A stretch of DNA of 20,716 bases from a virus: positions 1 through 20,716 of IMG/VR virus record IMGVR_UViG_3300027861_000235, one strand, 5' to 3'. The notes below the pieces were generated by a model. That model did not search any database, was not told the DNA's origin, and saw only the letters and a program-made list of their open reading frames with translations. A program made the translations under genes and the position numbers. Below are positions 2,561-19,119 of this stretch, in pieces (positions within the stretch are counted from its first letter, which is position 1; each line of letters starts with the position of its first letter).

Positions 2561-3241
2561 ATGAGTGAAGAAGGTGTTACAGCGGAGGAAGGTACAGTGG
2601 ATAACACCACTACAGTAGATAACTCTGCAGATAATGCTGGTGGTACGGGTGCTGTTGATGCAGGTACTGAGAATGTTCTTGGTGCAGGTGTTGAATCGGA
2701 TGCGACTGTTGATGTGGGTGCAGGTGAGAGTCTTCTTGATGGTGAGGCAGGTGAGGTTGCTCCTGTTGCTCCTGAAAGCTATGAGTCTTTTACTGTTCCT
2801 GAAGGATTTGAAACAGACGATGAATCTGTAGAGCAGTTCTCATCTATGGCAAAGGAGTTGGACTTGAGCCAGGAACAGGCTCAGAAGCTCCTCAATAAGC
2901 AGGCCGAGCTTAATGCTGATATGAAAGCACAAGCAGAGACTGCAAGAGTCCAAAGAGAGCAAAGCTGGGTTGACGAGCTTAAAGCTGATGCTGTCGTTGG
3001 AGGTAAGAACCTGCCGGAAACGGTGGAGAGAGCTAATCGTACTCTACGGAATCTAGGTTCCCCTGAATTGATTAGTTTAATTAAAGAAAATGGTTATGGG
3101 AATAATCCCGCAGTCGTCAAGTTTATGGCGAATATTGATAAGAAGTTGGGTGAAGATAGCATGGTTGAGGGTAAAGGAACTACCATCTTGAATAAGACCG
3201 CTGCTCAGGTCATGTTTGACCACCCAAGTTCACAGGCTTAA
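2561..3241 (+). CDS. Capsid scaffolding protein
   Basis: This 226-residue protein is expected to guide procapsid assembly inside the shell and then leave. The first 97 residues contain no Lys or Arg and are rich in Glu, Asp, Gly, Val and Thr. A short 'SYESFTVPEGFE' element (about 73-84) leads into helices 'LDLSQEQAQKLLNKQAELNADMK' and 'QSWVDELKADAVVGGKNLPETV'. The C-terminal part has 'NGYGNNPAVVKFMANIDKKLGEDS', a common ending of scaffolds next to the major capsid gene. The start ATG follows GAGGAGGAG at 2546-2554. Length, helix content, charge polarity and location fit the scaffold class. No protease motif is visible. Confidence 0.85.
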   Translation: MSEEGVTAEEGTVDNTTTVDNSADNAGGTGAVDAGTENVLGAGVESDATVDVGAGESLLDGEAGEVAPVAPESYESFTVPEGFETDDESVEQFSSMAKELDLSQEQAQKLLNKQAELNADMKAQAETARVQREQSWVDELKADAVVGGKNLPETVERANRTLRNLGSPELISLIKENGYGNNPAVVKFMANIDKKLGEDSMVEGKGTTILNKTAAQVMFDHPSSQA

Positions 3242-3259
3242 TGAAATAGGAGATACACA

Positions 3260-4255
3260 ATGGCTACTCTAGCTACTAACGTACAAACCCTTGCAGATCA
3301 CGCTAAGATGCTTGATCCAGATGGTAAGGTTGACTACATCGTAGACACCATTACTGAACGCAATGACATTCTTGAAGACATGGTTTGGAAAGAAGGTAAC
3401 TTGCCTACTGGTGAGCTGACTACCGTTCTTACCGGACTCCCTTCTGTTGCATGGCGTATGCTGAACTACGGCTACCAACCTAGTAAGATGACCACTAAGC
3501 AGGTCACTGATACCTGTGGTATGCTCGGAACCTTTGGCGAAGTTGATAAGGACATTGCCAACCTGAACGGTAACACTGCCGAATACCGCATGAAGCAAGA
3601 TGCCAAGCGTCTCAAGGCCCTCGGTCAAGAGTTTGCTAGCACCTTCTTCTATGGTAACACTGATACCGCTCCTGAAGAGTTCCTGGGTCTTACTCCACGC
3701 TATTCCAGCAAGTCTGCTGCTAATGGTGCTAATATTCTTCTCGGTGGTGGTTCTGGCTCAGACAATACCTCTATGTGGCTCTTGACCTTTGGTGAAGAAG
3801 AAGGTGGATACGGTATCTATCCCAAGGGTTCTAAGGCTGGTATTGAAGCTACTGACCTCGGTCAACAGGTTCTTACTGATGTTGCTGGTGGTAAGTACCT
3901 CGGCTTCCAAAACCACTACCAATGGAAGTGTGGTTACACCATGAAGAACTGGAAGTACAACGTTCGTATCCCGAACATTGATATTTCTGACCTTACCAAG
4001 AATGCTTCTGCAGGTGCCGACCTGATCGATCTTATGATTCAGGCCACTCACCGTAACGAAGATACCTCTGCAGGTAAGACTGCATTCTACTGTAACCGTA
4101 CTGTCCTGAGCTTCTTGGACCGTCAGACTTACAATAGTGATAATATGAATCTCTCTTACGATAAGGACCCACATGGTAAGCGTGTAATGACCTTCCGTGG
4201 AATCCCTGTTCGTCGTTGTGATTCATTGGTAGAGAACGAAGCTCTGGTATCCTAG
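3260..4255 (+). CDS. Major capsid protein, epsilon15 gp7/BPP-1 type
   Basis: The 331-residue product is the shell protein (HK97 fold expected). Strong family signatures are 'DGKVDYIVDTITERNDILEDM' near residues 21-41, 'WKEGNLPTGELTTVLTGLPSVAWRMLNYG' (about 43-71), 'QVTDTCGMLGTFGEVDKDIA' (about 80-99), 'EFASTFFYGNTDTAPEEFLGLTPRY' (about 124-148), 'GIYPKGSKAGIEATDLG', and 'HYQWKCGYTMKNWKYNVRIPNID'. These belong to the GP7-like capsid family of phage epsilon15, BPP-1 and relatives rather than the T7 gp10 family. The RBS is an AGGAG just upstream of ATG 3260. A hairpin follows the stop, as expected for a very highly expressed gene. Confidence 0.95.
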   Translation: MATLATNVQTLADHAKMLDPDGKVDYIVDTITERNDILEDMVWKEGNLPTGELTTVLTGLPSVAWRMLNYGYQPSKMTTKQVTDTCGMLGTFGEVDKDIANLNGNTAEYRMKQDAKRLKALGQEFASTFFYGNTDTAPEEFLGLTPRYSSKSAANGANILLGGGSGSDNTSMWLLTFGEEEGGYGIYPKGSKAGIEATDLGQQVLTDVAGGKYLGFQNHYQWKCGYTMKNWKYNVRIPNIDISDLTKNASAGADLIDLMIQATHRNEDTSAGKTAFYCNRTVLSFLDRQTYNSDNMNLSYDKDPHGKRVMTFRGIPVRRCDSLVENEALVS

Positions 4256-4264
4256 CCTCACTCT

Positions 4265-4303
4265 CCTCTGGGGGGACACTGGGTTCCCCTGGAGGTATTT
4301 TAG
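4265..4303 (+). terminator. Probable (leaky) intrinsic terminator after the capsid gene
   Basis: The arms 4265-4276 (CCTCTGGGGGGA) and 4284-4295 (TTCCCCTGGAGG) can pair over 12 positions with three G-U wobbles, around a 7-base loop. A weak T-rich run (tattttagtt) follows. The imperfect U tract suggests partial termination, which would lower expression of downstream genes relative to the capsid gene. Confidence 0.55.
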
Positions 4304-4327
4304 TTAAATGAACAAGGAGATATAAAG

Positions 4328-4717
4328 ATGATTATGGACAAGCAGCTCGTTATGAGCGAAGATCAGGCAGTTACCGCTACTGCCGTTAGTACTAATGTCC
4401 TTGACCTTGGCGCAGGTGGAGTTGCTGAAGGGCATCCTATCCGCATTAACTGCCAAGTAACTGAGGCGTTTGACAACTGTACTTCTCTTGATGTTAAGGT
4501 TCAGACTGATGATAACGCTTCATTCAGTTCTGCTACTGAGCTTCAGAGTGTGTTGGTTCCACTGGCTTCTTTGGCCATTGGTTATCAGGTTCCTCTCGGA
4601 ACTCTTAATGGTCCTGTTGAGCAGTACCTTCGTATGAACTATGTTGTTGCAGGTAGTGCTCCCAGTGTTGGGACTATTACTTCTGCTCTCGTTCTTGACA
4701 AACAGACTAACGCTTAG
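4328..4717 (+). CDS. Bbp16-family capsid cement (decoration) protein
   Basis: This 129-residue protein matches the Bbp16 capsid cement pattern: an N-terminal 'MIMDKQLVMSEDQAVTATA' arm, 'STNVLDLGAGG', a beta core 'SLDVKVQTDDNASFSSATEL', 'VPLGTLNGPVEQYLRMNYVV' and the C-terminal 'TSALVLDKQ'. In BPP-1-like phages this protein binds the outside of the expanded capsid and stabilises it. Its place directly downstream of the major capsid gene agrees. AAGGAG at 4314-4319 supports ATG 4328 over the internal ATG at 4334. It sits between two hairpin terminators, so its level may be tuned separately from the capsid protein. Confidence 0.85.
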   Translation: MIMDKQLVMSEDQAVTATAVSTNVLDLGAGGVAEGHPIRINCQVTEAFDNCTSLDVKVQTDDNASFSSATELQSVLVPLASLAIGYQVPLGTLNGPVEQYLRMNYVVAGSAPSVGTITSALVLDKQTNA

Positions 4718-4728
4718 GAGATAGACTA

Positions 4729-4962
4729 ATGGAATATACCTGTATTCGGAAGTGCTACTTTATGGATCGTCTTATCAAGGAAGATCAAGTCATTACTATT
4801 AATGATCCTAGTGATCAGGACAAGATGATGCTTGATCGTTGCTTTGAGTGTGATGAACCTGCACCTAAGAAGCGTACCCGTAAAGTTGCACCTAAGAAGG
4901 CTGAGGAGAAGAAGACTGAAGATAAGTTGCCTGACTCTCCGGCTCCAGGTTTCCTTGAGTAA
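4729..4962 (+). CDS. Small Lys-rich protein of unknown function
   Basis: The 77-residue product follows the cement gene by 11 bases, with GGAG in 'taggagatagactaatgg'. The N-terminal half (MEYTCIRKCYFMDRLIKEDQVITI) resembles short beta proteins often found just after capsid or cement genes, with Cys at residues 5, 9, 38 and 41. The C-terminal half is a charged, probably disordered Lys/Glu/Pro tail (KKRTRKVAPKKAEEKKTED) that could touch nucleic acid or capsid. A head-completion or accessory role is only inferred from position. I do not recognise a named family. Confidence 0.65.
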   Translation: MEYTCIRKCYFMDRLIKEDQVITINDPSDQDKMMLDRCFECDEPAPKKRTRKVAPKKAEEKKTEDKLPDSPAPGFLE

Positions 4963-4970
4963 ATTTCTAT

Positions 4971-5005
4971 GGGGGGAGGGGTTGTCTCTCCCCCCTTTTT
5001 TGTTT
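4971..5005 (+). terminator. Strong intrinsic terminator closing the head operon
   Basis: GGGGGGAG (4971-4978) pairs perfectly with CTCCCCCC (4988-4995). The stem can extend to 11 pairs with two G-U wobbles and a 3-base loop (4982-4984). A run of T with one G (ttttttgtttt) follows at once from 4996. This is the clearest rho-independent terminator in the window and separates the head genes from the lysis and tail genes. Confidence 0.9.
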
Positions 5006-5023
5006 TAGAGTAGGAGAAGTAAA

Positions 5024-5284
5024 ATGGCTGTAGAACCTGGGAAGGATACCAGTGAGTATAAAGAAGCTAAAAGCGCAAGTGTTTGGGGTATTGTTGCAAT
5101 GTTACTTGGTACTCTCATTACTATTGGGGGTGCTGTTGCGGAGGCCCTTGGAACTGATACCAAGTCCGCTATAATCGCAGGTGCTATTGTAGCCACTGCA
5201 GGTGTTCTTCAGAAGACGTTTGTCTCTCTAGGGTACATCAAGAGCCGCAGTGATGTTAAGGTCGCTGATGAGCCTTCTAAGTAG
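5024..5284 (+). CDS. Putative two-TM phage holin
   Basis: The 86-residue protein has a charged N-terminus, two hydrophobic helices (about residues 20-42, SVWGIVAMLLGTLITIGGAV..., and 48-70, SAIIAGAIVATAGVLQKTFV) joined by a short polar turn, and a charged C-terminal tail. Size and topology fit a class II holin, which would form holes in the inner membrane at the end of infection. A TAGGAG lies just upstream of ATG 5024. The gene comes right after a strong terminator and before a small lipoprotein gene, a combination typical of lysis cassettes. No endolysin is seen nearby, so the call rests on topology and context. Another small membrane protein is the alternative. Confidence 0.6.
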   Translation: MAVEPGKDTSEYKEAKSASVWGIVAMLLGTLITIGGAVAEALGTDTKSAIIAGAIVATAGVLQKTFVSLGYIKSRSDVKVADEPSK

Positions 5285-5289
5285 TCTTA

Positions 5290-5331
5290 TTGGACCTATT
5301 ATTAAATTTATAATTCTCGCACTGTACGAGA
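5290..5331 (+). promoter_or_regulatory. Possible promoter/operator in the 62-base gap
   Basis: A perfect TATAAT lies at 5309-5314. The best upstream -35-like elements are poor: TTGGAC at 5290 gives only a 13-base spacer. A 5-bp inverted repeat (TCTCG/CGAGA, 5315-5319 with 5327-5331, 7-base loop) follows and could be an operator or a 5' mRNA hairpin. It would restart transcription after the terminator at 4971-5005. This is a weak call. Confidence 0.25.
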
Positions 5332-5346
5332 TTCGGGAGCAAAGTA

Positions 5347-5586
5347 ATGAAGCGATCCAAGCTGATGATTGTGCTGATGGTGCTTCTGGGGAATTGTTTT
5401 CTCGTAACCTCCTGTAGTTCTTTTCGCAAGGCGATTTATGTTCCTCCTGGGGCGGCAGTCGAAGTTAGGACTGAGTGTATGGTTCCAGTGTGGGTAACAG
5501 TAGAAGATAAAAAGATTCGGGGTTGGGCTAAGGCAGGCCAGTATTGGCGTCTTGGCCCTCCCCCGTGGGTGCGTAAGGAGAAATAA
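5347..5586 (+). CDS. Small phage lipoprotein (o-spanin-like candidate)
   Basis: The 79-residue product has a lipoprotein signal: basic MKRSK, a hydrophobic core (LMIVLMVLLG), and a lipobox ending V-T-S-C with the lipidated Cys at residue 23. The mature part (about 57 aa) contains 'YVPPGAAVEVR' and ends with a Pro-rich 'LGPPPW' stretch. An outer-membrane anchor next to a holin candidate suggests a role in the last lysis step, like an o-spanin. However, no inner-membrane partner is encoded in another frame here and there is no C-terminal TM for a u-spanin. Phage lipoproteins with the 'YVPPG.aV' pattern occur in other phages without proven function. The stop overlaps the RBS region of the next gene. 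Confidence 0.6.
   Translation: MKRSKLMIVLMVLLGNCFLVTSCSSFRKAIYVPPGAAVEVRTECMVPVWVTVEDKKIRGWAKAGQYWRLGPPPWVRKEK
5575..5580 (+). promoter_or_regulatory. RBS that fixes the adaptor start
   Basis: AAGGAG ends 7 bases before ATG 5588. It favours that start over the in-frame upstream ATG at 5552, which would overlap the lipoprotein gene by 35 bases and has no such site. Confidence 0.8.
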
Positions 5587-5587
5587 G

Positions 5588-6181
5588 ATGAGTACTAAAA
5601 CTGAAATCTGTAATTACGCACTTGAGTATATTGGCAGAAAGACTATTGCTAATATTGATGCCGTTCCTGGCACCCGTGAAACAAATGTATGTAAGCGGTT
5701 CTACGATTTGGCTAGGCAGGGAGTACTGCGTGATCATAAGTGGGGGTTTGCCACTAGATCTATTACTCTTGCCTCTGTAGATACTGCAGACTTTGTAGGT
5801 TGGGACTATGCTTATCAATACCCTGTTGATGCACTGTATGCGAGTGAGATTTATAACTCTGCAGAATCTGACCCTATTGCCTACACAATTGAATCTAACC
5901 ATGACCTTGACGGTAAGTTTATTCTTACTGACCAAGATGACGCTATACTTATTTACGTTGCTGATACTGATGAGACTCACCTGTTTGACTCTCAGTTTGT
6001 AGAGGCTCTATCATTTAAACTTGCTGCTATGATTACTGTTCCGCTCAAGGGTGAGAACCAGTTGCAGCAGACTATGGCTCAGAACTATGGCATGGCAATA
6101 ACTAAGGCTAAGGCTAGTGATAGTAATGAGCGTCACGCTGAACCGAATACTGATAGTAGTCTACTCAACTCCAGGAGCTAG
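5588..6181 (+). CDS. Head-tail adaptor (T7 gp11-like tail tubular protein A family)
   Basis: With the start at 5588 the product has 197 residues, the usual size of podovirus adaptors. The family pattern is clear: 'EICNYALEYIGRKTIANID', then 'ETNVCKRFYDLARQGVLRDHKWGFATRSITL' (about 31-61), and a C-terminal helix region 'FVEALSFKLAAMITVPLKGENQLQQTMAQNYGMAITKAKASD' where the protein typically docks on the portal. It is expected to form the ring under the portal and to carry the nozzle. The next gene starts 3 bases after the stop. Confidence 0.87.
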   Translation: MSTKTEICNYALEYIGRKTIANIDAVPGTRETNVCKRFYDLARQGVLRDHKWGFATRSITLASVDTADFVGWDYAYQYPVDALYASEIYNSAESDPIAYTIESNHDLDGKFILTDQDDAILIYVADTDETHLFDSQFVEALSFKLAAMITVPLKGENQLQQTMAQNYGMAITKAKASDSNERHAEPNTDSSLLNSRS

Positions 6182-6183
6182 AT

Positions 6184-8106
6184 ATGCCGACTGCAACAGC
6201 ACAACAAGTATCATTTAACGGTGGTGAGCTAGCTCCTAGACTCTATGGGCGTACTGATCTTGAGAAATATGACTCCTGTGTAAAGACGATGAAAAACTTC
6301 ATTCCTACCTTGCAGGGTGACATTGTTAATAGACCTGGAACTAGGTTCGTTGTAGAGGTGAAGGACTCCACTAAGAATGTCCGGTTGATCCCTTTCCAGT
6401 TCTCAGTGACTCAGGCATATGTCCTTGAGTTTGGTGATGAGTACATGCGGGTCATTGCTGACGGTGCTCAGGTAGTCTATCCTGTAGGTCATCCTGATGC
6501 TGGTGATCCTGTAGAGGTTGCTATTCCTTATGCTCATACTGACCTAGATCGTATTCAGTTTGCTCAGAGTGCTGATGTACTGTTCTTGGTTCATCCAGTC
6601 TATGCACCTCAGAAGATAAGTAGATACAGTAATACTGAGTGGACTTGTGATTCTATTCCTTTTGGCACTTCTTCTGCTACACCTACTGGGCTTGCTAGTG
6701 ATTCAGGTGGCGCCACGATTTACTATGTAGTTACCGCTGTGGTTGGAGGTGAAGAGTCTACAAAGTCTACTCCTGCAGGAAGTGGTACAGAGACTAGTAC
6801 ATTATCTTGGAATGACATCTTTGAGGCTGAATACTACAATGTGTATAAGCTGAAGAATGGTGCGTACAACTGGATCGGTGAAGCTGAGAGTAATCAGTTT
6901 AAGGATAGCACCATAGAAGGTGATCCTGGTAAGAGACCACCAGAAGCTATTGACCTTTTTGGTGCTGAACCTACTTTAGAAACGCTTAGTTCTAATGTAG
7001 TTCCTGTTATGGCTCAAGATGGTAATGTGTACTCTGCAGCTGGTGGTGGATGGACTGCTACAACTGCTGCAGCTTCTGTAGTTTCGGGTTCAGGGGCTTC
7101 TTCCTTATATGCTTTGTTCGATGGGGCTGCCTTGGGCATGAGCATCTACGATCAGGTATATGGAACAGGTGACGCTACAGTAGTAATTACTCCAGACACA
7201 GGTATTGCTTTTGGTGGTTACTCTCTTACTAATAGTTCTGGGACAGCTAGTGCGCCTAAGAGCTTTACTCTTGAAGGGTATGATGGTTCCTGGCATATGT
7301 TAGATGATCAGTCTAATGAGACTGCATGGCTACCTAGCGAGAAGAGAACATATACATTCTATAATGAGACAGCTTATACTCAGTACCGTATTGTGTTTAG
7401 GGATGCAGTTAATACTATCCTGGTATCACTTGAAGAGATAGAGATGCATACTGCTACCTATAACACTGCTGCTAACTACCCTGGCAGTATTACTCTGTAT
7501 CAGCAGAGACTAATCCTTGCCAGAACTGACGCGAATCCTCAGACATTCTGGGGTTCACAGACAGGTAACTTCTTTAACTTTAACACTTCACGTCCGCTTC
7601 AGGATGATGACTCTTACCAGTTCACTATCTACAGTAATCAGATCAATGAGGTTAAGTGGATTGCGGCAATGAAGTCACTACTTACTGGTACTTCTGGTGC
7701 TGAGTGGGAGATTACAGCAGGCTCAGGTGGAGGGGCTATTACTCCTACTAGTGTTAATGTAGTCTCGCAGGGTAATCGAGGGTCAGAGGCTATTATACCT
7801 ATTATCATTGGTAGTAGCTTGTTGTTCATTGCTAGGGGCGGTAAGAGTATTCGGGACTATGGGTTTAACTTTGACGTAGATGGTTATACTGGTGATGAGC
7901 TTACGCTTCTTGCCAGTCATTTATTTGAAGATTCTGCAGTAAGGGCATGGGCATTCCAGAAGGCTCCGTATTCTGTAGTGTGGGTAGTAATGGAAGATGG
8001 TTCTTTAGTAGGCTTGACCTATGATAAGGACCAGAAGGTGATAGCATGGCATCAGCATGAGACTGATGGTGACTTTGAATCTGTGGCAGTTATATACGGG
8101 AGTTAG
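6184..8106 (+). CDS. Tail nozzle-like protein, N-terminal part (split gene)
   Basis: The 640 residues begin with the family signature 'FNGGELAPRLYGRTDLEKYDSCVKTMKNFIPTLQGDIVNRPGTRF' (residues 10-54). They continue with 'PFQFSVTQAYVLEFGDEYMRV' and 'YPGSITLYQQRLILARTDANPQTFWGSQTGNFFNF' (about 428-462). Two added modules are visible: a fibronectin-III-like segment (about 167-255, 'YYVVTAVVGGEES', 'YNVYKLKNGAYNWIGEA') and a discoidin (F5/8 type C)-like segment (about 272-422, 'PKSFTLEGYDGSWHMLDD', 'SLEEIEM'). The protein stops at 'WHQHETDGDFESVAVIYGS', where related proteins continue. The missing end is encoded at 8342-8974. AGGAG at 6171-6175 supports the start. It is expected to form the lower tail tube or nozzle. 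Confidence 0.8.
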   Translation: MPTATAQQVSFNGGELAPRLYGRTDLEKYDSCVKTMKNFIPTLQGDIVNRPGTRFVVEVKDSTKNVRLIPFQFSVTQAYVLEFGDEYMRVIADGAQVVYPVGHPDAGDPVEVAIPYAHTDLDRIQFAQSADVLFLVHPVYAPQKISRYSNTEWTCDSIPFGTSSATPTGLASDSGGATIYYVVTAVVGGEESTKSTPAGSGTETSTLSWNDIFEAEYYNVYKLKNGAYNWIGEAESNQFKDSTIEGDPGKRPPEAIDLFGAEPTLETLSSNVVPVMAQDGNVYSAAGGGWTATTAAASVVSGSGASSLYALFDGAALGMSIYDQVYGTGDATVVITPDTGIAFGGYSLTNSSGTASAPKSFTLEGYDGSWHMLDDQSNETAWLPSEKRTYTFYNETAYTQYRIVFRDAVNTILVSLEEIEMHTATYNTAANYPGSITLYQQRLILARTDANPQTFWGSQTGNFFNFNTSRPLQDDDSYQFTIYSNQINEVKWIAAMKSLLTGTSGAEWEITAGSGGGAITPTSVNVVSQGNRGSEAIIPIIIGSSLLFIARGGKSIRDYGFNFDVDGYTGDELTLLASHLFEDSAVRAWAFQKAPYSVVWVVMEDGSLVGLTYDKDQKVIAWHQHETDGDFESVAVIYGS

Positions 8107-8108
8107 TA

Positions 8109-8333
8109 ATGGAAAGTGAAGACCTAAGAGAGATTAGGGATGACATCAAGACGGTACTACAACATCAATCGAATCTTATAGGTCGTTTTGATTCACACAT
8201 TGATAATGAGGCTATTCACCAAAACCCTCCATGTGATGCCCATAAAACTCTCAGTGCGAAGCTTTGGGCAATAGGCACAGGTGCAGTCGCAGCAGTATTA
8301 GGAAGCCTTTACAGCGTACTTAAGGCGCATTAG
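8109..8333 (+). CDS. Small one-TM membrane protein (holin-like accessory candidate) inside the split nozzle
   Basis: The 74-residue product has a polar helical N-terminus ('LREIRDDIKTVLQHQSNLIGRFDSH'), a short 'NPPCDAHKTL' linker and one C-terminal hydrophobic helix (about 52-71, LWAIGTGAVAAVLGSLYSVL). This N-coil/C-TM layout resembles XhlA-like or one-TM holin-associated proteins, but the sequence match is too weak to name it. GGGAG at 8098-8102, within the end of the preceding ORF, serves as RBS 6 bases before the ATG. The gene sits exactly between the two parts of the nozzle protein, which is unusual. Confidence 0.65.
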   Translation: MESEDLREIRDDIKTVLQHQSNLIGRFDSHIDNEAIHQNPPCDAHKTLSAKLWAIGTGAVAAVLGSLYSVLKAH

Positions 8334-8336
8334 GAG
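8332..8336 (+). promoter_or_regulatory. RBS for the separate C-terminal nozzle ORF
   Basis: AGGAG overlaps the TAG stop (8331-8333) of the 74-aa ORF and lies 5 bases before ATG 8342. It shows that the C-terminal nozzle part has its own translation start. Confidence 0.75.
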
Positions 8337-8341
8337 TCTCT

Positions 8342-8974
8342 ATGTTTTCGGATGATATGTATGTAGTTGTTACTAGGACTATAGGCGGCTCTACTGTTAA
8401 GTATATTGAGTTGGTTAGTGATAGGTTTACTGACGAAACGACACCTGAAGATGCTTACTTTGTAGACTGTGGGTTGTCCTATGACGGTGCTCCTGCTAAC
8501 TCATTCTCTGGATTAGACCACCTTGAAGGTGAAGATGTAGCTGTCCTTGCTGATGGTAATGTCTTTAATGGGTTAAGTGTAGCTTCCGGTGCAGTAGCCC
8601 TACCTAATAGCATTACAGCTTCTGTAGTTCATATTGGCTTACCTTACACATCAACCATGACTACATTGGATGCTGAGCTTAGAGGGGGGAACTCCCCCAC
8701 TATTCACAACCAGATACGGAATATCAATGGGGCTACTATTAAGCTGAAGGACACTAGAGCTTTATGGTACGGGCCTGACGCTGATAACCTAGATGAGTAT
8801 GCCTTCCGTACTGACGAAGATCCTGGAGATCCTACTAGGCTCTTCACCGGTGAGGTAAGTGTTCCTCTGAATCCTGGTAGTGGTGAGACTGCTGAGATGA
8901 CTATTGTGAATACTGATCCATTGCCGATTAACGTACTGTCACTAATCACTGAACTGGAGGTAGGCGATCAATGA
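8342..8974 (+). CDS. Tail nozzle-like protein, C-terminal part (split gene)
   Basis: The 210 residues read as the end of the protein encoded at 6184-8106. 'DDMYVVVTRTIGGSTVKYIEL' (5-25) is the continuation normally found shortly after 'WH.HETDG.FESVAVI'. It is followed by 'FVDCGLSYDGAPANSFSGLDHLEGEDVAVLADGNVF' (about 40-75), 'VVHIGLPYTSTM', and a C-terminal 'NTDPLPINVLSLITELEVGD'. Family knowledge says these motifs usually lie in one polypeptide. Here they follow a new ATG with its own RBS, in another frame. The two parts together have 850 residues. They probably assemble as two chains of one nozzle. The stop overlaps the next start by four bases (ATGA). Confidence 0.75.
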   Translation: MFSDDMYVVVTRTIGGSTVKYIELVSDRFTDETTPEDAYFVDCGLSYDGAPANSFSGLDHLEGEDVAVLADGNVFNGLSVASGAVALPNSITASVVHIGLPYTSTMTTLDAELRGGNSPTIHNQIRNINGATIKLKDTRALWYGPDADNLDEYAFRTDEDPGDPTRLFTGEVSVPLNPGSGETAEMTIVNTDPLPINVLSLITELEVGDQ

Positions 8975-9411
8975 GTTATACTGTAAAGAGAGCTGATAAG
9001 GCTTCTGCCCGTGAGATACTGAAGAACACCTATTATGAAGCAAACAAGGTATTCAGAAAGTATTCAGCGTGGGGCGATATAGTAGCTGACAACCTCAAAG
9101 CTCTTGAGACAGATAACCATGCCTACATCTTATTTGATCCTAATGACAGGCCCATAGTGCTGTTTGGTATTATGCCTGGAGAGTATAGTGTAATGTGGTG
9201 TACTCCTAGAGAAGATATGAGCCAGAGAGATAACGTTGCCTTTCTGCGTAGGGGTATTGAAAAGGTCAAAGAGTGGTATAAAGAGTTTGGAATCATCTAT
9301 GTCCCAGTACATAAGGAATGGGAAGCTGTGAAAGACCTAGTATTGTTCCTTGGCTTTACTATACTGGATGACGGTAATAGTGCTGTTTACGATGGAGAAT
9401 GTGATGACTGA
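8971..9411 (+). CDS. T7 gp13-like virion protein with GNAT-type fold
   Basis: The 146-residue protein begins at an ATG within ATGA (8971-8974), so it is coupled to the nozzle end. The layout is that of the gp13-like internal virion family related to GNAT acetyltransferases: 'REILKNTYYEANKVF' helix, 'HAYILFDPNDRPIVLFGIMPG' strands, 'YSVMWCTPREDMSQRDNVAFLRRGIEKVKEWYKEFGIIYVPVHKEW', and a final 'FLGFTILDDG' strand typical of GNAT ends. The acetyl-CoA loop (Q/RxxGxG/A) is not recognisable, so catalytic activity is doubtful. A role in virion assembly before ejection is inferred from T7. Confidence 0.72.
   Translation: MSYTVKRADKASAREILKNTYYEANKVFRKYSAWGDIVADNLKALETDNHAYILFDPNDRPIVLFGIMPGEYSVMWCTPREDMSQRDNVAFLRRGIEKVKEWYKEFGIIYVPVHKEWEAVKDLVLFLGFTILDDGNSAVYDGECDD
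9394..9397 (+). promoter_or_regulatory. RBS that fixes the gp14-like start
   Basis: GGAG lies 6 bases before ATG 9404. It argues against the in-frame upstream ATGs at 9350 and 9392 and gives an 8-base overlap with the preceding gene. Confidence 0.75.
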
Positions 9412-9961: not shown

Positions 9962-11976
9962 TGGCACTCATTCCAAAGGCGGCTATAGGGCATGTGGGGC
10001 AGGGAGTGTCCCGTGCTAGGTTGCAAGGTACTGAGGGTGTCCAGCGCACTGCAGAGGACTTCGGTGCCCAGACTGGTGCAGACATTGAGAGGTTTGCCAA
10101 GGCATCACAGCAGGCGGCAATTGTCCTGCTTGACAGAACAAACAAGCATATGGTCACTGATGCCTCTAATAAGTACCGCACTGCTGCCCGTGACATTAAC
10201 CTGAAGTACCAGAAGCTGAGAGGGCAGGATGCTATAGGTTCCGCACAGAAGGCAGAGATAGATCTTGCGAAGGCAAAGGAAGAGGTACTGAAGGACCTTA
10301 ATACCCCTGTGCAGTTAAGGGCATTTAGCGATGACTCTGAAGGTGTCACTAGAAGCACTATGGGGCAGCTTAAGAGTCATCAGGGGAGAGAGGAGTATGC
10401 GTTTGGCAAGCAGGTCTGGTCAGGCAAGAACTTCAATATTATACAGACGGCTAAAGTGGATGCGCTAGGTGATGACCCTGGAATGGCTGCTATCCAAGTT
10501 AATAGGGGAATAGCAGAGATAGAGAGCAATGTAATTGATCGTTTTGCGCCTAAGAAACCTGATGGCACTGTTGCTGACGCTAAGGACTGGCCTGAAGGCT
10601 CTAGTGAGATCTATAATGCCGAGATGACCAAGGCTCAGAACACCTACCATGCAGAGTTGCTTAACACTTTTGCAGCAGAAAACCCTGCTAGAGGGCTTGT
10701 GTATCTAGAGAAGAACAAGAAGACAATGGACCCTAAGCTATACAGCGACTTCAAGGACAAGATGGAAGACTTCGCCAATGATGACCAAGTTGATACTGAT
10801 GTGAATGCATTGCGTAGTCTACCTGCAGATAAGGTCCCAAGTGCTATAGCGGAACTGCCAAAGGAGCGCAGGAATAAGGTACGTGCTGAGTACAACGTCC
10901 AGATGGAAGAGGTCAAGAGGGCTGAATTTATCGGCAATAAGGATAAGATGGACACTGTTATAAACGGCATTGACAGTGGAGATATGTCGCTAGACGATGC
11001 ATCAAAGCAGGCTAGGATGTTTGAAGACCCCAAGATGCGTAGAGCTTTAGAGGCCTCAATAGCAGAGAAGAAGTCTGGCATTAAGAAGTCATTCGGAGCC
11101 ATCAGTTACCTTAAGGCAGGTAAGGAGCTAGGTGCCATAAAGGGTGGTGATGTAAACGCCCTTGAGAAGTGGTACATGACAACTGCCCCAGAGCTTCCGT
11201 TTATGTCAGATGCTGAGAGGCGTGACCTCTTGGGAGACTGGCAGGATAAGCATGATCTTGCTACAGGTGCCAAGATCCCGAAGGCTTCTTCTGAATCTCA
11301 GTGGAAGAAGGAAGCCAGGAAGGAGATGGATGACCAGTTATCGTCTATCACCGAGGCACTGTTGGACAAAGGCCTGATCAACCTTAATAAGGCTAATGAC
11401 TTTGTTGCCAATAGGAGGTCTATGTTTGAGACAGACATAGCAGCACTGGAGGCTAATGGGCCTTTAGAGCGTGGTGCCGCTATGACAGTAGTGACTGACC
11501 TAATGAGGGTCACGGATACGGTAAAGATAGGTGACAAGGTTGTTAATATACCTGATGGGCTTGCTTCCCAAATGAGAGCAACTGACAATGATGGTGATAT
11601 AGAGGCACTTCCAAAGCACCTAAAACACGTAAGAAGTCAGATTAGTGATGCCCTGAAGATAAAGAAGCAGGCCGGTGATCAACAGTTCTCAACATCAGGT
11701 GAGTCTTACGGGTTTGATGATGAACTTGAAGTATATATGTCCCCAATCAGATTTGCTGGTCCTATATATAAGCCGTTTGGTGGTGGTGTAAAGGAGATAT
11801 CTCCAGAGGAGAGAGAAGCACTATCAAAGGTTGAGGCAGACAATATCAAATCCGCTGAGGCTACAAAGAGAGAGAAGGCTAGAGTGGAGTCGGAGCCTGG
11901 GGTATGGGATGACTTTACGACTTGGTTCAACAGCACCAACTTCAGCCTTGGCCACGGTAGAATCCGCTTAAGATGA
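9961..11976 (+). CDS. Large internal virion protein (ejectosome candidate, gp15-like position)
   Basis: The 671-residue product is almost wholly helical and charged, with no signal peptide or convincing TM helix. The N-terminal region (about 1-120: 'GAQTGADIERFAKASQQAAIVLLDRTNKHMV', 'YRTAARDINLKYQKLRGQDAI', 'LRAFSDDSEG') is of the kind seen in internal core proteins of podoviruses. It contains repeated long helices with Lys/Asp/Glu through the middle. Its place after the gp14-like gene and before the giant proteins matches T7 gp15. Ejection with the DNA is inferred from position only. ATG 9961 overlaps the preceding TAA by one base. Confidence 0.62.
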   Translation: MALIPKAAIGHVGQGVSRARLQGTEGVQRTAEDFGAQTGADIERFAKASQQAAIVLLDRTNKHMVTDASNKYRTAARDINLKYQKLRGQDAIGSAQKAEIDLAKAKEEVLKDLNTPVQLRAFSDDSEGVTRSTMGQLKSHQGREEYAFGKQVWSGKNFNIIQTAKVDALGDDPGMAAIQVNRGIAEIESNVIDRFAPKKPDGTVADAKDWPEGSSEIYNAEMTKAQNTYHAELLNTFAAENPARGLVYLEKNKKTMDPKLYSDFKDKMEDFANDDQVDTDVNALRSLPADKVPSAIAELPKERRNKVRAEYNVQMEEVKRAEFIGNKDKMDTVINGIDSGDMSLDDASKQARMFEDPKMRRALEASIAEKKSGIKKSFGAISYLKAGKELGAIKGGDVNALEKWYMTTAPELPFMSDAERRDLLGDWQDKHDLATGAKIPKASSESQWKKEARKEMDDQLSSITEALLDKGLINLNKANDFVANRRSMFETDIAALEANGPLERGAAMTVVTDLMRVTDTVKIGDKVVNIPDGLASQMRATDNDGDIEALPKHLKHVRSQISDALKIKKQAGDQQFSTSGESYGFDDELEVYMSPIRFAGPIYKPFGGGVKEISPEEREALSKVEADNIKSAEATKREKARVESEPGVWDDFTTWFNSTNFSLGHGRIRLR

Positions 11977-14238: not shown

Positions 14239-17200
14239 ATGCCTAGTTTAACAGAATGCCTTAAGAAGCTCGGTACTGTGGTATCCGAAGCAGACAAGAA
14301 TGAACTTCTTTCTGCGGAGTTGCTTCAAGAGGGTGACATTACTGACAAGATTTCAGAGATGGTGGCGGCAACTGACCGTGACTTAGATGGTATCCGTGCT
14401 CAGTTGACAGAGCAGGGATTTGATGTTACTAAGCCTATTGGAACTCTTCAGCAGGCTAGTGCTTTCCATGGTACTCCTCATGATATTCTTGGCAACCTTG
14501 ACCCTGAGCAGCGTAGGTTTATGCTAGATAATATTGGTACTGGTGAAGGTGCCCAGGCGTTCGGTCATGGGCTGTACTTCACCAGTGAAGAAAGTATTGC
14601 CAATTGGTATGCGGAGCGTCTTACTGGTGGTGTTAATGCCAATGTAAGAGATGCTATAGACTCTCTTGACTGGCTAGGTTTCGGTAGCAGGACAGAGGCC
14701 CTTAAGAATATTAGAGCGAACGAAGATTGGGCCGATAGATGGGACGCCAACGATGACCCTGATGTGGTTGCAGAGCTTAATAACTGGAGAACACTAGGGC
14801 AGGAGAAGCGTGTATTTAACGTCACTCTTTGGAAGGACAAGCAGGAGAATCTGCTGAAGTGGAATGACTCTGTATCTCCTGGTGTTGCTGAAGCTATTGA
14901 CAAGCAATTAGAGGCTGAAGGGTCAGATCTTAGGCTTTCTGATTTTAACCCTGGATTAGCCAATATGGATACTGACGCCATCCGTCAGGTTATCAAGACT
15001 AATGATTCTGATGCTGATATAGATGGGATGACTAGAGAAGAGTTAATCCAGATGTATGATGATATGGAGCTTGAGGGGTGGACACTCTTTGAGAGTGGAG
15101 CCGCTCTATATTCCTCCTTGTCTGATGAGTTCCATTCTGATAAGGCGGCTTCAGAGTTCCTTAACCGTGCAGGCATTGATGGTATATCCTTCCCTGCTCA
15201 GTCCGGTGGCAGAGGTGACGGTAGCAAGGGCACCAACTATGTAGTCTTTGATGATGCAGCCATTGAGATTGAGGAGCAGATACTGCTTCAGCAAGAGGGT
15301 GGTGAAGTCAGAGGTGTGTTTGATGTAGAGCGGAACATTGTAGGTCTATACAAGATCAATGATGCTTCTACCTTCATCCATGAAATCTTCCACTTCTTTG
15401 CTAAGGACCTCAAGGCTATGGCAAAGATGGACGGTGTAGATAGTGACCTGCTTAACGACATTGCTATTCTTGAGAAGTATGCTGGTGCTTCACTCGACTC
15501 TGTTGAGGCCCAGGAGAAGTTGGCCAGAGCTTTCACTAGGTACATGGGTTCCGGCAAGGCTCCTTCTGTAGGTTTGCAGGGTGTCTTTGAGAGCTTTAAG
15601 GACTGGCTACTTGGTATGTGGGATGTGGTCAGCAGTAGCTTTGAGTACTCTGACGAGGTGGGTGGTGTATTCGACCGTATGTTGGCATCTCAGGAAGATA
15701 TGGAGATGGCTAACGCAATGTATAGTGACATGGTTACTTTGACCAGTGCTATGGAGGATATACTTGATAGTGATGAGGAACGTGCGTCACTAGCCAAGGC
15801 TAAGAAGGAGCACAACAAGGCTAACCAAGATGCCAGAGTAAGCTTGCTTGCGCTACGCATGACTGCTTGGAAACGTGCCAGAGGCGGTATTAGGGGCATT
15901 AGAGCGCAGGTAAAGAAGGATCTATCAGAGACCGAAAGGTATAAGGCAGTAGCTTACTTTGAGCCTGGACGTTCGCTCAATGCCAACGAGTTGAGCAAGC
16001 AGGACATTGATCACCTCAAGTCTCTTGGCAAGTCTATCGTAACGAAGAAAGGTGGCACTACTCTTGATGCTGCTGCTATGTCGTTAGGCATTGCTAGTGG
16101 TCAGGAGCTACTGGCATCTATGCGTAATACTAAACCTATCAATGAGGCTGTTACTGAAGAGACTGCTGAACGGGTTCGGAAGCAGACTGAAGCTTACGAG
16201 AGGGAGATAGAGAGTCTGTCTGGAGCAGACTGGAAGGCACAGCTTGCAGAGGAGTCACTGCATAGCGAGGCGAAAATGCGTGAGATGGTAGAGATTGCCA
16301 AGATACTTGCTATGAAAGCGTTGAAGTCTCAGCAAGGCGCACTGCGTAGTGAACAGAGGAAGCTTACGCATGAAGCTGTTAAGCTGGCGGCACGTAAGGT
16401 CATATACGATATGGATCCTAGTAAGGCAAGAGCTACCCATAAGTTCCTGCTGGCAGAGAAACGCTACCTACGAATGGCTACAAACCTTGCGCTCAAGGGT
16501 GATTATGAAGGTGCTTACTCTGCTATGAAGAAAGCTACTCTTCAGAATGCTATGAGTCGAGAGTCAAAGAATTTCCGCAAGATGCAGGACAGTTTGATAA
16601 AAAGAACTAGCAAGAAGAGGCTGGCTAGTACGTTAGATGGTTCTGATGAGATGGCTAAGGTTGAAGAACTCAGAGCAGATGCTGTCAGGCAGTTGGTTGG
16701 ACAGTACATCCATAAGGACATCAAGCCGAAGGTATTCGACAACGCACTTAAGGACCTAGTAGCACAGGACATGACTGATGACGCTGAACTCATAGAGTCA
16801 ATGGCACCTGCTTCACTAATTCTTGCTGACTGGATGATAGAGGGAACACCTATTGTTAAGGCAGAGGACTGGTACAAGCTAGACAACGCTATAAGCCACT
16901 TGGTTAAGATCGGGCGTGGGCAACTGGATGCGCTTAAGACTGCTAGGTTCCAGAGCAGGGAGCAATTGATAATGGGTATGTTGGCTCAACTTGGTGAGTT
17001 GAAGTCGATGAAGATCCGTGGTGGCGACATACGCTCATGGCAGAACTTCTTAGGTAGTGTCCTGAGTGATGTGCGTAGAGCTGATTTTATTATGGATGAG
17101 CTTGATGGGTTCAGGCTGGAGCAAGGTCTACCACCTGGGCTGTTCGTATCAACCTTCGTAAATACTATCAACGAAAAAGAAGGCGACTACGGAAAGTTGA

Positions 17201-19119
17201 TGCTTGAGTTAGATGATGCAATGAAGCCACATCTAGTGAAGCTTACGGAAGCCTCTAGAAGGATCTCTAAGGAGATGGGTACTAAGGTAGGATTTGGATT
17301 GCCTGGATTCGATGGTGAGGCTAGTGAGTTTATGGTTAAGGTAGGGGAGCTTGAGTTTACTACCGAGAATCTGATTGCAATTCTGCTTAACTTGGGCAAC
17401 CCTGACACCAGAGCTATGGTAATGAGTAACCCGAAGGGGCACAACTTCTCACCTAAGATGATAGATAAGATCTCTTCACTGTTTAACGCTGATGAACTTA
17501 AGGCAGTCCAGGGTTTACTGAATGTGGTAGCGTCTAAAACTGATAAGCTTGATAAGGTTGCTAAGGACGTTACTGGTAGGTCGCTAGTAAGGGTAGATAC
17601 TGACAGTGGGTATGAGGTCAAGTCAAAAGACGGGGAGACTATCAAGATAGAAGGGTACTACCCTATCTCTCATGGTTCTCAATACAACAGGGTTAGTGCG
17701 GCTCAGTCTGCAAGAGAGATGGCCATGAACTCTATTGACGCTGTGTTCAGGTCAAACACTGTGAAGGGATCAATGCTGATAGAGCGCATGAGGGACAAGG
17801 ACGGTAACATACTTGTTGTTAGGCCAGTGAGTCTTAGTCTGTCCACCTATCGTCAGCACGTATCTGACATGGCTAGACTGATTACTCACCAGAAGCTAAT
17901 GAGTGAGATAGCACCTGTCTTCCACGATGCTAGGATAGAAGAAGCCATCACCAACGTCATAGGTCCTAACGGGTATAAGACCATGATAGAGGCTTTGCAG
18001 GGTGTGGCTAGGCCTGGAGGCACTAAGCTTGAGCCTCGGAAGGGCTACCTAAAGGTGATGAACTGGGTACGGAAGAAGGGTGGCGCACTAGCCCTTACTC
18101 CTAGAGTGTCTTCTAGTATTAAGCAGGCACTGTCTACCATGAACGGGTTGAGTGAGCTTAGTAAGTTCAGCAAAAAGACACCTATTTATTATGCCCAGGC
18201 AGTTAAGCAGTTTGCTAAGGGTGGCAAGGTTTCTGATCTTGTAGCTTTTGTCGATGAGTCAGACCCTTCAATGATGTCTAGAGGCAACACTTTAGACATG
18301 AACCTTAACGACCTTACTGAGGAGGCTAGGGCGGCTCTTCCTGTGGGGGTCACTATCCCTGGCACCAATAGAGTAGTCACTATGAAGGATGTTCAGGATG
18401 CAATGTACTACGGCATTAAGACGGTTGACTATGCTACTACCTACCCTATTTGGTTGGCGGCATACAATATGGCACTCACCGAGAACATAGGTGGTGTTAA
18501 GGAGACCATGACCCCAGAGGAGAAGAAAGCTAAGGCTATAGACTTTGCACGTTTAACAGTCAGCAGAACTCAGCCTTCCTCTGCACCTCTGGCTTTGACT
18601 GCTGTACAGCGTAATGAATTTATGAAGTTCTTTACCTCATTCATGACGTTCACTCTCGGTGTTCATGGCCAGCGTATGATCAATAGCTTCAAGGCTGTTA
18701 TGAATAAGGATATACCTCCTAGTGAGTACATCAAGACTGTTGTCTTGGAGGGGCTTGCACCAGTGTACCTGCAGATGGCTTTCGCGTTCTTGGTGTACTC
18801 TGACGATGAGCGTCCTGAGTGGTCTGAGTTGTTTATAGAGCCTGTACTGTATATGACTACTTCTTGGCTTCCGATAGTACGGGATGTACCTACTATGGCC
18901 AAGTACAACATCTCTAATGTAGCCCCCACCTTTGCACAGATGCTAGAGAGGATCTGGTATCCGTTGGATGAGACTCTTAGATGGGATGACGCAGGAGAGA
19001 TAGTATATGAGTGGGGCAAGACAGCAGGTGCGATTGCTGGTGTTAATGTGCTAAACTTCACTGATGATATAGGCAAGATGTATAAGAAGACTACTGGAAA
19101 AGATATTCTCGGTAAATAA
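14239..19119 (+). CDS. Polyvalent virion protein with ADP-ribosyltransferase-like and HExxH metallopeptidase-like domains
   Basis: This 1626-residue protein starts at ATG 14239 (GGAG at 14228-14231). An ART-like domain (PolyVal type) spans about 74-345: 'AFHGTPHD' with His77, 'GTGEGAQAFGHGLYF' (100-114), 'GIDGISF' (312-318) and 'NYVVFDD' (333-339). Next comes 'NDASTFIHEIFHFF', a zincin HExxH (His381, Glu382, His385), with Glu426 in 'QEKLARAFTRYMGSGKAP' as a possible third zinc ligand. A long helical region follows. The C-terminal third (about 1170-1626) resembles the LPD38-type region of large polyvalent proteins and has a hydrophobic helix near 1504-1518 (LAPVYLQMAFAFLVY). Such proteins are thought to enter the host with the DNA and act on host targets. 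Enzyme activity is predicted, not shown. Confidence 0.75.
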   Translation: MPSLTECLKKLGTVVSEADKNELLSAELLQEGDITDKISEMVAATDRDLDGIRAQLTEQGFDVTKPIGTLQQASAFHGTPHDILGNLDPEQRRFMLDNIGTGEGAQAFGHGLYFTSEESIANWYAERLTGGVNANVRDAIDSLDWLGFGSRTEALKNIRANEDWADRWDANDDPDVVAELNNWRTLGQEKRVFNVTLWKDKQENLLKWNDSVSPGVAEAIDKQLEAEGSDLRLSDFNPGLANMDTDAIRQVIKTNDSDADIDGMTREELIQMYDDMELEGWTLFESGAALYSSLSDEFHSDKAASEFLNRAGIDGISFPAQSGGRGDGSKGTNYVVFDDAAIEIEEQILLQQEGGEVRGVFDVERNIVGLYKINDASTFIHEIFHFFAKDLKAMAKMDGVDSDLLNDIAILEKYAGASLDSVEAQEKLARAFTRYMGSGKAPSVGLQGVFESFKDWLLGMWDVVSSSFEYSDEVGGVFDRMLASQEDMEMANAMYSDMVTLTSAMEDILDSDEERASLAKAKKEHNKANQDARVSLLALRMTAWKRARGGIRGIRAQVKKDLSETERYKAVAYFEPGRSLNANELSKQDIDHLKSLGKSIVTKKGGTTLDAAAMSLGIASGQELLASMRNTKPINEAVTEETAERVRKQTEAYEREIESLSGADWKAQLAEESLHSEAKMREMVEIAKILAMKALKSQQGALRSEQRKLTHEAVKLAARKVIYDMDPSKARATHKFLLAEKRYLRMATNLALKGDYEGAYSAMKKATLQNAMSRESKNFRKMQDSLIKRTSKKRLASTLDGSDEMAKVEELRADAVRQLVGQYIHKDIKPKVFDNALKDLVAQDMTDDAELIESMAPASLILADWMIEGTPIVKAEDWYKLDNAISHLVKIGRGQLDALKTARFQSREQLIMGMLAQLGELKSMKIRGGDIRSWQNFLGSVLSDVRRADFIMDELDGFRLEQGLPPGLFVSTFVNTINEKEGDYGKLMLELDDAMKPHLVKLTEASRRISKEMGTKVGFGLPGFDGEASEFMVKVGELEFTTENLIAILLNLGNPDTRAMVMSNPKGHNFSPKMIDKISSLFNADELKAVQGLLNVVASKTDKLDKVAKDVTGRSLVRVDTDSGYEVKSKDGETIKIEGYYPISHGSQYNRVSAAQSAREMAMNSIDAVFRSNTVKGSMLIERMRDKDGNILVVRPVSLSLSTYRQHVSDMARLITHQKLMSEIAPVFHDARIEEAITNVIGPNGYKTMIEALQGVARPGGTKLEPRKGYLKVMNWVRKKGGALALTPRVSSSIKQALSTMNGLSELSKFSKKTPIYYAQAVKQFAKGGKVSDLVAFVDESDPSMMSRGNTLDMNLNDLTEEARAALPVGVTIPGTNRVVTMKDVQDAMYYGIKTVDYATTYPIWLAAYNMALTENIGGVKETMTPEEKKAKAIDFARLTVSRTQPSSAPLALTAVQRNEFMKFFTSFMTFTLGVHGQRMINSFKAVMNKDIPPSEYIKTVVLEGLAPVYLQMAFAFLVYSDDERPEWSELFIEPVLYMTTSWLPIVRDVPTMAKYNISNVAPTFAQMLERIWYPLDETLRWDDAGEIVYEWGKTAGAIAGVNVLNFTDDIGKMYKKTTGKDILGK

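Follow-up and report, generated by a model that had tools for sequence, protein, structure and literature searches.

Can the tail nozzle of a phage, the tube through which its DNA leaves, be built from two separately encoded chains, and if so, does a small gene lying between the two coding regions have anything to do with the nozzle? The question is raised by the window, the 20,716-nt stretch that makes up positions 1 to 20,716 of the IMG/VR record IMGVR_UViG_3300027861_000235. An earlier note had described here three ORFs in three different frames, each with its own ribosome-binding site and with clean junctions, and we find the same ORFs with the same boundaries. The features of the locus are as follows.

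5585-6181, plus strand: tail tubular A / connector gene, directly upstream of the nozzle (phrog_394 tail protein, E 2e-51)
6184-8106, plus strand: ORF1, 640 aa, nozzle N-terminal chain, ending in ...FESVAVIYGS (phrog_376 positions 1-501; 8ck1_A residues 8-536)
6955-7458, plus strand: extra domain of ORF1, about 160 aa, at which 9/9 aligned relatives have a gap
8098-8102, plus strand: GGGAG, Shine-Dalgarno site of ORF2, within the final codons of ORF1
8104-8111, plus strand: ORF1 stop TAG (8104-8106), then an in-frame TAA (8107-8109) overlapping the ATG of ORF2 (8109-8111)
8109-8333, plus strand: ORF2, 74 aa, the putative inserted gene, with a charged N-terminal part carrying HQNPPCDAH and a probable TM segment near residues 52-70
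8332-8336, plus strand: AGGAG, Shine-Dalgarno site of ORF3, overlapping the ORF2 stop codon
8342-8974, plus strand: ORF3, 210 aa, nozzle C-terminal chain (phrog_376 positions 508-711; 8ck1_A residues 542-827; structure models)
8971-9411, plus strand: next gene, internal virion protein-like (phrog_308, E 1.4e-5), whose start overlaps the ORF3 stop (ATGA)

The sequences upstream of the three starts, caGGAGctagatATG for ORF1, GGGAGttagtaATG for ORF2 and AGGAGtctctATG for ORF3, each provide a Shine-Dalgarno site. Past its end, the ORF1 frame runs directly into TAG TAA and then into many more stops, so the two halves are not joined by readthrough. Tight stop/start junctions are common throughout the gene cluster of the window, and the codon use of ORF2 and ORF3 resembles that of the rest of the phage. 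The tail tubular A gene, which a mechanical ORF list starts further upstream (5552-6181, TTG start), occupies the same gene position in the related locus L001.

ORF1 and ORF3 match consecutive parts of the same family. In a PHROG profile search, ORF1 (E 4.6e-145) and ORF3 (E 4.7e-53) together cover positions 1-501 and 508-711 of the 712 in PHROG 376, that is, homology over the whole protein, and they divide the Carin1 nozzle (PDB 8ck1_A) in the same order. By tblastn, the two matched stretches are 15 nt apart and in frame in phage records (epsilon15, at 10216/10232, Tyrion, BPP-1, SR18 and others), and 256 nt apart in the window. Identity to the relatives is similar on either side of the break; for the related nozzle L002 it is 47% before the break, 54% just after it and 43% in the tip. 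Both halves are open, and they retain 47/52 of the near-invariant columns before the break and 14/15 after it. This comparison confirms that ORF1 and ORF3 together make up a single tail nozzle of the T7 gp12-like kind, each being one half. The family of T7 gp12 and Carin1 gp36 resembles the window in the sequence of both halves, in the fold of the relatives and in the gene order next to tail tubular A; it differs in being one chain at nearly all related loci where the window has two. A single polypeptide is usual, but not strictly defining, for T7 gp12-like nozzles, and here there are two ORFs with tandem stops. The rest of the window includes a portal (PF12236, E 2e-145), a GP7 capsid protein (E 2e-118), a Bbp16-like cement protein, tail tubular A and internal virion proteins, and by this gene content the phage, which is uncultured, is a short-tailed one of the epsilon15/BPP-1/Carin1 type. 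The extra domain of ORF1 looks discoidin or carbohydrate-binding-like by eye only; it has weak PHROG tail-protein matches and no Pfam domain.

The position of the break in the protein was read from the alignment to full-length homologues and from a structure model. The junction aligns as FESVAVI(YGS-stop ... MFS)DDMYVVVTRTIGG, and the relatives carry about five loop residues at that point. The break falls between ESVAVI and DDMYVVV, and no conserved residue is lost. In a confident AlphaFold2 model of the complete nozzle of L002 (mean pLDDT 85), this point lies in a turn, with strands 468-478 and 481-492 on either side and pLDDT at 90-95. The nozzle fold match was obtained on this relative, not on the two-chain complex of ORF1 and ORF3: the best PDB match of the model is 8ck1_A (E 7e-55), followed by T7-type nozzles at E about 1e-24. 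As modelled, then, the break is a beta-hairpin turn within a folded domain, and to the question raised by the earlier note, whether it falls within one domain, the answer is yes. From the strand meander and from what we know of T7 gp12, we take the interrupted domain to be propeller-like. The first 40 or so residues of ORF3 correspond to two strands of that domain and a linker, and the remainder is the nozzle-tip domain. When ORF3 is modelled alone, its first 40 residues have pLDDT 43-52 and residues 41-110 have 73-93, so the first two strands of ORF3 appear to need ORF1. A break inside a folded domain means that the two chains would have to co-assemble, and implies that they would reassemble into an active complex.

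How common is this arrangement? Relatives were drawn from bacterial genomes and from viral contigs, and three profiles were run on every locus, one for the part ahead of the break, one for the strands that follow it and one for the tip domain. All three regions lie within one ORF at 344 related loci (312 distinct proteins), so homologues are not normally two genes, a situation that the earlier note had allowed for. The exceptions are the window, L099, L106, L181 and several loci cut by contig ends. Among the related loci collected there is no second phage with the same split position. L099 (whose contig is shared with L283 and L285) and L106 have their break about 35 residues further along, immediately ahead of EDAYFVDCG, and L181 is split at yet another point. 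As in the window, an ORF of its own encodes the nozzle tip domain in these three, which differ from the window in the break point. In L099 the split ORFs overlap by ATGA with no insert between them. In L106, positions 4787-4990 hold a candidate ORF of about 67 aa between the halves, with a TAATG stop/start junction; it is not recognisably similar to ORF2 and is like it in size only. Going by these loci, the nozzle gene is split at several positions, with a small ORF in the gap in two lineages. To the earlier note the split looked like a stable architecture; this has indirect support only, from the sequence conservation of both halves, as the relatives include no second phage with the same split. 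In the literature searched we found no report of a split nozzle.

Several loci have other peculiarities. L099 (2521-7264) and L106 (2469-7141) carry a separate tip-domain gene and then a gene of about 560-600 aa at whose end the tip domain occurs a second time. The L001 nozzle tip (2935-5376) has an extra domain, FCCH-like by analogy to phage annotations, which is another insertion in this protein. We set aside Pseudomonas phage UFJF_PfDIW6 (L115, 3986-6455), where the two "tail tubular B" labels reflect two ORFs that overlap near the N-terminus; a sequencing frameshift may be the cause, and the split is in any case a different one. The double labels in BPP-1 and in a Caulobacter phage are gene overlaps only.

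ORF2 is an orphan. No homologue was found by tblastn in phages and viral contigs, no Pfam (E<=1), NCBIfam or PHROG family matches it above chance, and a comparison with PADLOC gives no match at E<=1, which bears only indirectly on a role as a superinfection-exclusion moron. A degenerate DNA motif search returned only a chance match, in L114. The codon use of ORF2 is the best of the six frames and lies 3.1 SD above shuffles, and its GC and GC3 are as in its neighbours, so it looks like a real gene and not a conspicuously foreign one. A one-TM gene in the break had been proposed, and the gene is there; the TM call is borderline, with a best 19-residue hydropathy of 1.58. ORF2 probably encodes a small membrane protein. 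Its build, with the N-terminal part helical and a probable TM segment towards the C-terminus, is that of small phage proteins which relatives carry elsewhere (L119-L122, L290), and is comparable with that of HK97 gp15-type exclusion proteins and XhlA-like holin accessories. For XhlA or a holin accessory there is no Pfam match at E<=1. The family phrog_5225 gives E 0.28 with 19% identity in the alignment, a similarity not above chance. Morons and the phrog_5225-like proteins of relatives are thus like ORF2 in being small, with a single probable TM, in the late gene cluster, but have no sequence match to it above chance. A small TM gene beside the nozzle is not a general feature among the relatives. 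Most likely ORF2 is a late gene that hitch-hikes here, and its product does not belong to the nozzle.

The reading that we consider quite probable is fission of the nozzle gene by insertion of a small gene, with the two chains assembling as one protomer and ORF2 as a hitch-hiker. An ancestral single-chain gene would have been split by an insert of about 240 bp at the beta-hairpin turn. The insert would have brought in the small gene together with a start and a ribosome-binding site for it, and at the insert's end the downstream part would have gained a Shine-Dalgarno site and start codon of its own. Both chains, that of ORF1 (640 aa) and that of ORF3 (210 aa), would then probably come from a single late mRNA through coupled re-initiation, which is suggested by the ORF1 stop 2 nt before the ORF2 start and by the overlap of the ORF2 stop with the Shine-Dalgarno site of ORF3. 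The first two strands of ORF3 would complete the domain begun by ORF1, making each nozzle protomer a two-chain unit. Since ORF2 is an orphan, the insertion is not traceable to a source; the one candidate for a scar, the 11-nt repeat TAGTAATGGAA found at 7985 and 8104, may be chance.

The earlier note's reading is supported in part: a split nozzle is well supported, and a functional tie between the nozzle and the membrane protein made in step with it has no support. An ORF2 protein acting in tail assembly or in DNA entry at the inner membrane, with the split giving a fixed ratio, would account for its place between the halves and for the tight junctions on both sides. But such junctions are normal across this gene cluster, and where the nozzle of a relative is intact, no gene of this kind lies at that place; L001 shares the gene order of the window from the capsid gene through to those for internal proteins, its nozzle is intact, and it lacks ORF2. 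Where the nozzle is split elsewhere, the L099 halves have no insert and the small ORF of L106 is a different one. A functional tie is possible but unsupported, and we hold it unlikely. It is equally improbable that a two-chain virion nozzle split in a folded domain comes together with a membrane protein whose role in assembly or in DNA delivery is coupled to that nozzle.

The remaining alternatives deny that two working chains are made. Ribosomes can bypass an inserted stretch, as in T4 gene 60, and the halves might be rejoined in this way, by a self-splicing intron, or by readthrough or frameshift. The earlier note had itself considered removal of 8109-8333 as an intron. An Rfam scan of 7800-8700 finds no intron family and no group I/II core, its one match being to a different family and at chance level (E 3.4), and the RNA fold is no stronger than that of shuffles (z +1.2). 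The 235-nt gap is occupied by an ORF, the tandem in-frame stops TAG TAA and the separate Shine-Dalgarno site and ATG of ORF3 speak against a rejoined chain, and no in-frame take-off/landing codon pair for bypass is seen by eye. Rejoining of any kind is very unlikely. The split could instead be an assembly chimera or belong to a defective virus with a degenerating nozzle; this is a 20.7-kb metagenomic fragment seen once, and with no second phage found to share the split, we may be looking at a young or failing variant caught in a single sample. Against this, both flanks come from one gene with the insert between them in a clean three-gene order, the other structural genes are open, and both halves retain their invariant residues and codon bias. 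We consider decay or artefact quite unlikely.

Fission of a gene by an inserted one is already documented for phage enzymes carrying homing endonucleases. In Aeromonas phage Aeh1 the nrdA gene is in pieces around mobE and the split NrdA enzyme is fully functional; the gene 60/39 topoisomerase of T4 with mobA and the gene 43 polymerase of Aeromonas phage 25 are further two-chain precedents (PMC2988022). In these systems, as proposed for the window, an inserted gene leads to two chains, which cooperate in the cases tested, and some of the inserts have overlapping stop/start junctions. Their inserts are homing endonucleases in enzyme genes; that of the window has no nuclease match (ORF2 matches no such family in Pfam, NCBIfam or PHROG), is a probable small membrane protein, and splits a virion nozzle. 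What would be new is that the fission affects an essential part of the virion, that it falls within a folded domain and that the insert is no recognisable nuclease. The break marks a site at which a podophage nozzle is split in nature, and this region of the nozzle tolerates rearrangement, as the further break points in L099, L106 and L181 and the domain insertions show.

Two other features of the window deserve mention. Positions 14239-19119 encode a 1626-aa ejection-type protein (phrog_9880), the N-terminal part of which (AFHGTPHDI...GHGLYFTSE) recalls, by eye and with no Pfam support, ADP-ribosyltransferase-like motifs. Positions 5024-5586, which lie after the cement gene and before that for tail tubular A, hold a two-TM holin-like gene and a small lipoprotein of Rz1-like build, a pair that is also present in L001.
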